A stretch of 64,000 nt of DNA. Origin: Flavobacterium sp. SCGC AAA160-P02. Its GTDB lineage: Bacteria; Bacteroidota; Bacteroidia; Flavobacteriales; Flavobacteriaceae. The stretch is from positions 62,962-126,961 of the forward strand of contig KB911135.1 in the NCBI GenBank assembly GCA_000383355.1, in the 5' to 3' direction. How positions within the stretch are numbered: the first letter of the stretch is position 1; every line of letters begins with the position of its first letter. Of the stretch, positions 1,652 through 54,608 are shown in pieces. The position numbers were made by a program, and so were the translations under genes. The notes under the pieces are model-generated. The model was not told where the DNA came from. It ran no database searches and saw only the letters and a list, made by a program, of their open reading frames with translations.

Positions 1652-2020
1652 TTAAACAGGGTTGATTTCAGTTATTTTTGCATCTCCCCAAAGGCTTTCT
1701 ATATCATAGAATTCTCTTATTTGCTTTTGGAAAACATGTACTACTACATTAACATAATCCATCAAAATCCATTCTGAATTATTTTGACCTTCAATATGCC
1801 AGGGTTTGTCTTTTAATTCTTTACTAACTAATTTTTGAATAGATCCAGTTATTGCATTTACTTGAGTATTTGAATTTCCTGAACAAATAATAAAATAATC
1901 GCATACAGTGTTTTCTAATTCTCTTAAGTCTAACAATTGAATGTCATCTCCCTTTACATCATCAATACCCTTTATGATTACAGATATTAGCTCATCTGTA
2001 CTAACTGGTTTTTTTACCAT
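1652..2020 (-). CDS. rsfS: Ribosome silencing factor RsfS (YbeB/Iojap family)
   Basis: Family role: binds ribosomal protein L14 on the 50S subunit and blocks joining of 30S, reducing translation in starvation. Seen: a 122-residue protein of the normal family length, with the core around CDYFIICSGNS, then WHIEG, WILMDY and VVVHVF, which are typical RsfS blocks. It sits directly upstream of ftsH with a 10-base gap, a frequent pairing in Bacteroidota. A TAACTTTG -7 box lies 20-27 bases upstream of its ATG. Confidence 0.95.
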   Translation of the reverse strand: MVKKPVSTDELISVIIKGIDDVKGDDIQLLDLRELENTVCDYFIICSGNSNTQVNAITGSIQKLVSKELKDKPWHIEGQNNSEWILMDYVNVVVHVFQKQIREFYDIESLWGDAKITEINPV

Positions 2021-2040
2021 TAATTTTTTTATATTTAAAA

Positions 2041-2048
2041 CAAAGTTA
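2041..2048 (-). promoter_or_regulatory. -7 box of the rsfS-ftsH promoter
   Basis: TAACTTTG on the minus strand fits the Bacteroidota -7 consensus TAnnTTTG exactly and lies about 20 bases before the rsfS start. No clear TTG -33 element is visible at the usual spacing. Confidence 0.5.
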
Positions 2049-2105
2049 TTATTTTTTTGCGAGTATATTGCGTAGTATTTAATTAGTTTACACTTTCTTT
2101 AACAC

Positions 2106-14742: not shown

Positions 14743-15589
14743 TTATTGTTTCATTCTATTCATCACCCATACATGAGGTGCTGTTACAGCAAATAGAACA
14801 ATAAATATAATAGAGTTAAAAAGACTTTCACTTAAGTAATAATAGGCCACAACCAAACCAGTAATACTTATCAACCAATAAACAAAAGCTGTTTTGAGGT
14901 ATTCCAAAATTGTTTTGAAAGTATATCCTCCTGATAAAAATTTTGTTTGATCTAAAATAGATGGAATACTATGCCATAACACAAAATAAATGGCAAAGCC
15001 AAAAATGAGAGAGCTTGTTTTAAAAACTAAATACAATAATAAAACATAAAACAATTCCCTAACAATTTGAATATTCGGTTTTACTTTTCTTGTAAAAAGA
15101 TAAGCAGTTAGAGTTATTAATAGCAAAGAAGAAGTAACTAACATAGTTTCAATCCAACTATTTGGGATAATTTTACCTGTTAAATTTCGCATGACAACCT
15201 CAACATCTTTAAGATTCTCTATAAAAATTAGAGAAAAAATAAGCATCCCATAGGCAGTATATAGCATAGATTTAAGAACCTTAGATCCGCTAATTTTATC
15301 TTCTAAATGCTGTTCTCCAAAATGATAAGAACTTAATATGATAAAAAATAAAAAAGAAATAAAAGGATGTATTAAGTAACTCATAATACATAAAATAATA
15401 AGAAATAAATAAAATGCCGTAGATTTTAAAAAACTAGTAGTGTTTTTTTGCTGTTTTTTTTAAGATTGTAAAATCATTTGAACCATGAATGATTCCAATA
15501 GAAAGCACAATAATATATGCGATAGAATCCTCTATGATTTGACCAAATTGAATGCTTATCCAAAATAGTAAAAATGTAAAAAAAATCAT
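14743..15589 (-). pseudogene. blh: Beta-carotene 15,15'-dioxygenase Brp/Blh, reading frame broken by one base
   Basis: Membrane dioxygenase that cleaves beta-carotene into two retinals, the chromophore of the neighbouring proteorhodopsin. The main open frame (ATG 15384, 213 residues) holds SSYHFGEQ, LWHSIPS and APHVWVMNRM, three His motifs of the family. The missing N-terminus is in another frame: from ATG 15589 (or TTG 15613) it reads MIFFTFLLFWISIQFG and then the fourth motif IIHGSND, and stops at 15434. The frames join if one A is dropped from the A8 run at 15454-15461 (or the A7 run at 15443-15449), giving about 281 residues, the usual size. Divergent from proteorhodopsin, as in other marine flavobacteria. 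Assembly error, real inactivation and slippage are all possible. Confidence 0.88.
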
Positions 15590-15714
15590 AAAATCTTGAT
15601 AATGTACTCTCAAAAGATAGTTTTTTTTTCAAAGTTAATATTTTTTTTGTATTTTCGTTCGGGTTTTAGTACAAAACCTTAAACAAAACTAATTACTAAC
15701 AAATCATTTTTTTT

Positions 15715-16431
15715 ATGAATTATTTAAACTTAATTGCAATGGCTGTCCCTACGGACGGTACAGGATTTACATTTTGGCTTGGAGCTATGGCTATGATGGC
15801 TGCATCTGTGTTTTTCTTCCTATCAATGAACAGTGTTGACGCTAAATGGAGAACATCTCTTTTAGTTTCAGGATTAATTACATTTATTGCCGCAGTTCAC
15901 TACATGTACATGAGAGATGCTCATGCTGCTGGAGACTCTACTACAGTATTTAGATATGTAGATTGGATTTTAACAGTACCTCTAATGTGTGTTGAATTTT
16001 ACTTGATACTTAGAGTAGCTGGTGCAACTAAATCACACATGTGGAAATTAATTGGATTTTCAACTATCATGTTAGTCACTGGTTTCTTTGGTGAATCAGG
16101 ATGGGACGGTGGATTATTAAATGCTTCTATGTGGGGATTACTTTCTGGTCTTGCTTACTTCTATATCGCATATGAAGTTTGGTTAGGAAGCCTAAAGAAA
16201 TTAGCTGTTGCAGCTGGTGGAAACGTATTAAAAGCTCACAAAACTTTATGTTGGTTCCTTCTTGTTGGTTGGGCAATTTATCCTTTAGGATATATGGCTG
16301 GTACTGATGGATGGTACAACGGTATTGAAACTGTTCTTCCTTCTATGGAGGTTATTTATAACATTGGAGATGCAATTAACAAAATTGGATTTGGTTTAGT
16401 TGTTTACACGTTAGCTGTAAGCAAAGACTAA
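15715..16431 (+). CDS. Proteorhodopsin, light-driven proton pump
   Basis: Seven-helix retinal protein that pumps protons out of the cell in light. Seen: 238 residues; His62 (the H75 equivalent in VHYMYMRD), the helix-C motif DWILTVPLMCVE with proton acceptor Asp83, Thr87 and donor Glu94 (DTE type), and retinal-binding Lys223 in AINKIGFG. Met91 occupies the spectral-tuning position (105 in the reference protein); Leu or Met there gives green absorption, Gln blue. The pump is thus predicted to be green-absorbing. blh is divergent upstream. A strong hairpin terminator follows at 16455-16491. Confidence 0.97.
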   Translation: MNYLNLIAMAVPTDGTGFTFWLGAMAMMAASVFFFLSMNSVDAKWRTSLLVSGLITFIAAVHYMYMRDAHAAGDSTTVFRYVDWILTVPLMCVEFYLILRVAGATKSHMWKLIGFSTIMLVTGFFGESGWDGGLLNASMWGLLSGLAYFYIAYEVWLGSLKKLAVAAGGNVLKAHKTLCWFLLVGWAIYPLGYMAGTDGWYNGIETVLPSMEVIYNIGDAINKIGFGLVVYTLAVSKD

Positions 16432-16454
16432 TAAATATTTCGGTTAGTTAAAAA

Positions 16455-16491
16455 AACCCAAGTAGTTAACATAACTACTTGGGTTTTTTAT
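16455..16491. terminator. Bidirectional terminator between proteorhodopsin and the membrane protein gene
   Basis: A perfect 14-bp stem (AACCCAAGTAGTTA with its complement), a 3-base loop, A-run on the left and T-run on the right. It serves both convergent genes. Confidence 0.9.
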
Positions 16492-16538: not shown

Positions 16539-17315
16539 TTATTTAGATCTAAATGGTAAATAAGGACTCTTAATAAAATTCACAAGACTTGAAATAATAC
16601 TATAGAAAAACTTATAGATCGCTAAAACCACATACAATTTAGCCAAAACTACAGCAACTCCAACATACTCCCAAGCCACAGACATTAGACCATCCCAGCT
16701 CCAAGCAGATCCTGAAGCCATCGTTGGATCCCAATTTGTCCAATCTTTAGCTAAAATATCTCCTATAAAAGAAAGATTTAAAAGATTAGCTAATTCTGCA
16801 GTAGCTGCCATTGGCAATGCATATGCATAATTTATATTTTCAATCCATCCTGTAGCAAAATCTCCCGAAACATTTAATGATGTAGCCCATGATAATGTCA
16901 TTGCAAATGCACCAAACAAGGCTACAATAGCAGCAACATGTCCTAGTACTTTAATATTTGCAAGTGCTAAATCTTTAAAAATAAAATCAATAGTTCCACT
17001 TTTGGAGGCAGCTAAGCTATCTCCAGCAGATCTAATAACCTGAGAAATAGGAAATGCAGCATACACCCATATAAGCATAGATAAAACATTTGCTAAAATA
17101 TCCATTTTCTCTCCCATTCCACCAGACCAAATAGGTGAAAGAATCACAACTAGTGATGTTAACAATACTACAAGGGCTGAAACTGTGTAAAATTTACCCA
17201 CCCAAGCTGGGATATTACCCTCTGAATCTTGAACCCAAGAATTAAAAGTGTTTCCTGGTAATTTTGAATTGACTACCTGAGGTAAGTCAAGTAATTTGTT
17301 TAAAATTTTCTCCAT
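16539..17315 (-). CDS. Unrecognised membrane protein next to proteorhodopsin
   Basis: I do not recognise the family. The 258-residue protein has a soluble N-terminus of about 38 residues containing a Trp- and Pro-rich stretch, then four to five hydrophobic segments at about 40-62, 72-93, 118-143, 162-183 and 210-245, rich in Ala and Trp. No catalytic motif or signal peptide is evident, and there is no conserved Lys in the last helix to suggest a rhodopsin. It has a good promoter of its own (TTG-N19-TATTATTG) and ends tail-to-tail with proteorhodopsin. A link to light use is suggested by position only. Confidence 0.75.
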   Translation of the reverse strand: MEKILNKLLDLPQVVNSKLPGNTFNSWVQDSEGNIPAWVGKFYTVSALVVLLTSLVVILSPIWSGGMGEKMDILANVLSMLIWVYAAFPISQVIRSAGDSLAASKSGTIDFIFKDLALANIKVLGHVAAIVALFGAFAMTLSWATSLNVSGDFATGWIENINYAYALPMAATAELANLLNLSFIGDILAKDWTNWDPTMASGSAWSWDGLMSVAWEYVGVAVVLAKLYVVLAIYKFFYSIISSLVNFIKSPYLPFRSK

Positions 17316-53510: not shown

Positions 53511-54608
53511 TTATTTAATATTTTCTATGAACTGATCGAACAGGTATTCTGCGTCATGTGGACCTGGGCTTGCTTCTGGATGGTACTGAACAGAAAAACA
53601 ATTTTTATTTTTTAATCGAATCCCTGCAACTGTTTGATCATTTAAATGAACGTGAGTTATTTCTATATCTGAATGAGCCTCTGTCTCTTCTCTATTGATA
53701 GCAAAGCCATGATTTTGAGAAGTAATTTCACCTTTACCAGTAAGTAAGTTTTTTACCGGATGGTTAATACCTCTGTGTCCATTGTGCATTTTATAGGTAG
53801 ATATTCAATTTGCTAATGCAATTACTTGGTGTCCTAAACAAATCCCAAATAAAGGCAGGTCTCTTTGAATAATTTCTTTGGCTAATCTTTGTGCTTCAAT
53901 TAATGGTTCTGGATCTCCAGGTCCATTAGATATAAAATATCCATCGGGTTTCCATGAATATAAATCCTCAAAAGAAGCATCATATGGAAATACTTTTATG
54001 TAAGCTCCACGTTTTACAAAATTCCTTAAAATATTTTTCTTAATACCTATATCTAGAGCTGCAATTTTAAATTCTGAATTTTCATCACCTACAAAATAAG
54101 GTTCTTTAGTGGAAACTTTAGAGGCCAACTCTAAACCTTCCATAGAGGGAACTTTAGATAATTGAGCTTTTAAATTGTCTATATTATCAATATCAGTAGA
54201 GATTATTGCATTCATTGCTCCATGATCTCTAATATAAGACACAAGTGCTCTTGTATCTACATCTGATATGGCTACTAGGTTATGTTCTACAAACCAATCT
54301 TTTAAATTACCATTAGAATCTACTCTAGAATGCTCAAAACTAAAATTTCTTACTATTAAACCAGATATTTTTATACTATTAGATTCTACTTCTAATTCAT
54401 TTACTCCATAATTTCCAATGTGTGCATTGGTCGTTACCATAATTTGACCAAAATAGGAAGGATCTGTAAAAATCTCCTGATAACCAGTCATACCTGTATT
54501 AAAGCAAATTTCTCCTGTTACGGTTCCTTCAATTCCAACAGATTTACCGTAAAAAATAGTTCCATCTGCTAATAAAACTAATGCTTTTTTTCTTTGTTGA
54601 TATTTCAT
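53511..54608 (-). pseudogene. carA: Carbamoyl-phosphate synthase small subunit, interrupted by an in-frame TGA
   Basis: Glutaminase subunit giving ammonia to CarB for carbamoyl phosphate (arginine and pyrimidine synthesis). The frame from ATG 54608 reads 267 codons and stops at TGA 53807-53805. The same frame then continues without shift to 53511, giving 365 residues in all, the normal size. The N-part holds CarA start motifs (LADGTIFYGKSVG, TGMTGYQEIFTDPSY) and the nucleophile Cys257 in FGICLGHQ. The part after the stop holds His343 and Glu345 in [10 protein letters not shown], the rest of the catalytic triad. The stop sits where Gly is expected (...ALAN-G-I...KMHNGHRG), so GGA to TGA, one substitution, explains it. 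Truncated product would lack the triad. Confidence 0.92.

Follow-up and report, generated by a model that had tools for sequence, protein, structure and literature searches.

Does the flavobacterium that carried this DNA, Flavobacterium sp. SCGC AAA160-P02, own a light-driven proton pump for which it can no longer make retinal? The window, that is, the whole stretch analyzed here (64,000 nucleotides, G000:C46:62962-126961), belongs to a draft whose 80 contigs sum to 2,544,614 bases (completeness, 88.8%; contamination, 3.2%), figures that suggest a metagenome-assembled genome, and in it an intact proteorhodopsin gene stands beside a blh gene that is split by one base. If the break is true, this is a flavobacterium with proteorhodopsin and without known retinal synthesis, which bears on marine retinal supply. 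We favor, at a probability of roughly two in three, the reading that the split is a consensus error of the draft and that the living population makes normal Blh and retinal. As judged here, one-base breaks in draft genomes can mimic metabolic loss.

Between 15613 and 14743, a protein of the Brp/Blh family is encoded on the minus strand in two frames that are one base apart (Table 1). The upstream frame starts at TTG 15613 or ATG 15589, giving 59 or 51 amino acids, and ends in KKTAKKHY before its stop codon; the downstream frame is open from about 15459 (238 amino acids) and contains the motifs SSYHFGEQH, VLWHSIPS, and APHVWVM. ATG 15589 and ATG 15384 are 205 bases apart, which is 1 modulo 3, and the frames are thus out of register by one; the single open frame of about 280 to 300 amino acids expected for Blh is not found in the window. 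The preliminary description had reported a blh broken by a one-base frameshift, and its frames, its position for IIHGSND, and its A8 and A7 runs all read as claimed. Its naming of the gene also holds, with the 213-residue piece scoring 114.9 bits against the Pfam BCD family (PF15461; cut-off, 28) and the whole-genome BCD match in the draft reaching 126.1 bits.

Table 1. Positions of the blh pieces, the A runs, proteorhodopsin, and carA, counted from the first base of the window
Feature	Position	Strand	Basis
blh N-terminal piece, containing IIHGSND, the first of the conserved His motifs	15434..15613	-	ORF reading
blh C-terminal piece (BCD family, 213 aa), containing the three remaining invariant His	14743..15384	-	Pfam, alignment
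A8 run, one base longer than in 5/5 near relatives	15454..15461	-	relatives' DNA, P0001 protein
A7 run; the comparison places the extra base elsewhere	15443..15449	-	relatives' DNA, P0001 protein
Intact proteorhodopsin, 238 aa, divergent from blh	15715..16431	+	PF01036
carA, sole copy found in the draft, TGA at codon 268 (53805-53807)	53511..54608	-	census, homologues

Four histidines are invariant in 28/28 aligned proteins, namely, H43, H97, H214, and H280 in the numbering of P0001, an intact homologue discussed below. All four are encoded in the window, across two frames: H43 lies in the N-terminal piece and the other three lie in the C-terminal piece. Because H43 is absent from it, the 213-residue piece is predicted to be inactive. 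That an internal start at 15384 yields a product with enzyme activity of its own strikes us as scarcely credible; taken alone, the product passes the BCD cut-off comfortably, but it is without one of four histidines found in every aligned protein and without the N-terminal part.

The neighboring rhodopsin gene raises no such doubt. Described beforehand as intact, it matches PF01036 (Bac_rhodopsin) at 134.9 bits (cut-off, 24.6) and contains DAINKIGFG, whose lysine we take to be the retinal-binding lysine of the seventh helix. Tail to tail with it is a gene for a 258-residue protein without a Pfam match (16539-17315, minus strand), and a strong terminator-like hairpin (16451-16489) lies between the two.

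In its normal state, blh would specify one enzyme of about 281 to 289 amino acids carrying all four invariant histidines. This enzyme would cleave beta-carotene to retinal, a reaction known from the family, and the retinal would load the neighboring proton pump.

Where the extra base lies can be read from near relatives, a comparison that the preliminary description had proposed. In a DNA alignment, all five (L031-L035) have a one-base gap opposite the A8 run of the window, with no second internal gap within the shared stretch, and in four of the five the run is interrupted by a G. Restoring a single protein by removing one A, said beforehand to work at either run, is therefore only partly borne out: removal from A8 agrees with the five relatives and with P0001, and removal from A7 does not give the residues of the relatives.

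P0001 is an intact Blh of 289 amino acids found on three other contigs, the longest of 180,083 bases. It agrees with the C-terminal piece at 212 of 213 residues, Met 1 of the window piece being Val in P0001. Compared as protein, its tract reads KKQQKNTTSF, which has room for A7 where the window shows A8. Since two residues differ between P0001 and the window outside the tract, P0001 is the allele of another strain. Two further Blh proteins, P0002 and P0003, are 95 to 96% like the window from HFGEQH on and strongly different before it, a pattern that may reflect recombination or chimeric assembly. Same-species DNA was also sought in viral contigs, and none was found there.

We next consider whether the gene shows signs of decay. 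Against the five relatives, dN/dS is 0.10 to 0.18 for the C-terminal piece and 0.01 to 0.07 for the N-terminal piece; among the relatives themselves, the C-terminal piece gives 0.04 to 0.13, with dS saturated. No second lesion is present in the blh pieces. The lack of decay in blh would be expected of an error as well as of a very recent loss, and the slight excess of dN/dS in the C-terminal piece of the window speaks weakly against an error. The run is not suspicious in itself, because the 456 kb of open reading frames in the draft contain 109 A8 runs (and 20 A9 runs).

To place the break among other genomes, we surveyed blh in the genus and in the family. The genus sample of 97 genomes has a BCD match in 29, of which 28 are over the cut-off. 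Besides the window, blh is open in 27/27 of the latter, at 290 to 341 amino acids, and all 28, including the genome of the window, have a rhodopsin over the cut-off. In family score, four histidines, total size, and divergent position, the locus is like the Brp/Blh genes (PF15461) that stand beside proteorhodopsin in marine flavobacteria, and it differs from them in that its frame is split by one base, whereas those of the 27 others in the genus are open. Otherwise, it is an ordinary flavobacterial blh beside an intact proteorhodopsin.

A 29th rhodopsin genome of the genus, G093, has no BCD match, and its rhodopsin gene (L189, G093:C17) is cut by the contig end on the side of blh. The cut end translates as DVYKRQ, which looks to us like the remnant of a sequencing adapter; the missing blh is therefore probably an assembly edge. 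G093 also carries a neighbor similar to the 258-residue protein of the window.

Among the 397 genomes of the family sample, 101 have a BCD match (99 over the cut-off), and a short blh over the cut-off occurs only in the window and in G393. We rejected G393 as a second case of the lesion in the window: it has a 5' stub of blh running into another gene, which is a different lesion. In this locus (L186, G393:C18, around 1873-2058, minus strand), the stub ends at TAA and is followed by what we assume to be a signal-recognition-particle gene. A rhodopsin was not found in G393, a genome that is 67% complete.

Homologues of the two pieces extend this picture. Among the 120 C-terminal homologues listed out of 656, 114 are 271 to 332 amino acids long and 6 are shorter, a count made with a query that would miss broken C-terminal halves. 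There are four short homologues of the N-terminal piece. Three of them (P0121, P0123, and P0124) have ends that do not coincide with the tract; the fourth, P0122, comes from a relative, and its end, set against P0009, looks frameshifted at that tract, which suggests that assemblies occasionally show one-base changes at the A-rich tract of blh. It is tempting to imagine the tract after HGSND as a hot spot, at which one-base slips would flip blh on and off in a wild Polaribacter-like clade, mixing retinal makers and takers around a constant proteorhodopsin; we regard this as highly improbable, and a search of one literature collection returned nothing on proteorhodopsin, retinal, and phase variation together.

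Another line of evidence concerns the draft itself. For a census of gene breaks, 511 kb of draft sequence were set against 1.67 Mb from the relative G010, which covered 284 genes (282 kb coding; median identity, 87%); the census left out ORFs of <100 amino acids, nested ORFs, coverage of <70%, and any stop lying no more than 12 residues from the end of a match, with an identity floor for the best match of 65% in one run and 60% in the final run. Three of the 284 genes are broken by one base in the draft relative to G010: blh, an ExbD/TolR gene, and carA. Looser rules flagged 5/107, three of which (an end effect and two short frames) we took as spurious. G010 is itself error prone, because the reverse test flags 10/278 of its genes; where G010 has a broken gene, the census misses any lesion in the draft. 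With G016, a relative assembled into a single contig, the same test gave 0/133, and its proteins compared with the draft flagged 1/86, carA alone. The difference between 3/284 in the draft and 0/133 in G016 is not significant (Fisher P = 0.55). Likewise, 2/283 of the other draft genes are broken versus 0/27 of the genus blh genes (95% upper bound, about 10%), and break rates alone do not decide between error and loss.

At codon 268 of carA, where the window has TGA, both G010 and P0125 have Gly. P0125, a whole CarA found on four other contigs, agrees with the window at every one of the first 267 residues and toward its end matches the second carA piece of the window; among the 120 CarA homologues listed out of 8,000 scored, all 120 are 365 to 374 amino acids long. 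CarA serves pyrimidine and arginine synthesis, and a free-living cell without it is implausible; therefore, gene-breaking consensus errors are very probably present in the draft, and the TGA in carA is a probable one. The same draft, then, has a one-base break in a needed gene besides blh, and the carA stop, also within the window, gives an inexpensive warning of mimicry of metabolic loss. The ExbD/TolR gene (G000:C3 near 10262, L084, minus strand) has T8 where G010 has T7; this lesion could be real, because the gene has two paralogues, ExbD-family genes on C6.

With further one-base breaks in the draft, the break in blh is most simply another consensus error, and we infer from the comparisons above that the extra base is absent from the cells. 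Errors of this type are known: homopolymer indels in draft and metagenome assemblies resemble the one-base changes in A/T runs of blh and the ExbD/TolR gene, and they are described for Nanopore data in the available part of PMC9262707. The match is incomplete, as the third lesion of the draft, in carA, is a stop in place of a Gly codon and not an indel, and Nanopore serves as a comparison only, since the platform of the draft itself may differ.

The chief rival to a consensus error is a real and recent loss, in which replication slippage added one A and left a strain without a known retinal route, which would take retinal from its neighbors or keep an idle pump. We consider this unlikely, if well worth stating. 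A/T homopolymers do slip, the gene is otherwise undecayed, as expected of a recent break, and a rare true allele of this strain would look the same beside P0001. A rhodopsin bacterium that is without blh and needs supplied retinal is cited in the portion of PMC7734400 at hand. A search of the genome for a second blh or a retinal-forming dioxygenase, as proposed in the preliminary description, found neither: the draft, at 88.8% completeness, has one BCD match and no RPE65-type oxygenase. It does encode a full lycopene cyclase and, at a contig end, a piece of phytoene synthase. Therefore, a real break would remove the known retinal step, and carotene synthesis would probably remain.

Against a real loss stand the 27 open blh genes of the genus, the intact P0001, and the break of carA, a gene that a free-living cell is unlikely to lose; moreover, a draft that is 88.8% complete gives weak grounds for the absence of a second gene. 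The biological reading first given to this locus, a cell truly without Blh, is thus probably not right, given an intact protein agreeing at 212 of 213 residues elsewhere and a draft that also breaks its only carA. A search within one literature collection for proteorhodopsin, blh, and frameshift together returned nothing, as did one joining beta-carotene, Blh, conserved histidine, and rhodopsin, and the accessible sections of PMC2668756 and PMC5932025 contain no report of a broken blh.

A real break could also be leaky, with slippage of RNA polymerase or of the ribosome on the A8 and A7 runs yielding some full-length Blh, as had been suggested. There are precedents. Poly-A frameshifts of Buchnera and Blochmannia, some of them conserved, are proposed to be rescued by transcription slippage in these insect symbionts (PMC3017870, in the text available), and an A11 run in tssM of Citrobacter offers another example (PMC4256274, in part). 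Like the symbiont genes, blh has a single poly-A indel and a rest that is intact, with low dN/dS in both pieces; unlike them, its break is not common to relatives, its run is only A8, and it needs a deletion. Rescue would take one base fewer (or two more), whereas the passages of PMC5574713 that we could draw on describe slippage on A/T runs in E. coli and Buchnera as mostly single-base insertion, with deletions rarely tied to runs. A -1 ribosomal shift would lead into a frame with an early stop. At A8, the run falls short of the A11 example, and runs of this length number 109 in open coding sequence; the G within the run in four of the five near relatives means that no slippery site is conserved. 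These points weaken the suggestion, and we hold a leaky break to be very unlikely. A conserved programmed frameshift was ruled out, as 0/27 other genes of the genus are broken and the run is not conserved.

Blh can also be found joined to the enzyme of the preceding step. In another genome, an open frame of 671 amino acids (L187:1340-3352, G299:C42) combines a lycopene cyclase (PF05834, residues 16 to 377) with a Blh (PF15461, residues 427 to 661), thereby uniting two consecutive steps of retinal synthesis in a single protein; a rhodopsin gene lies upstream of this fusion, on the same strand.
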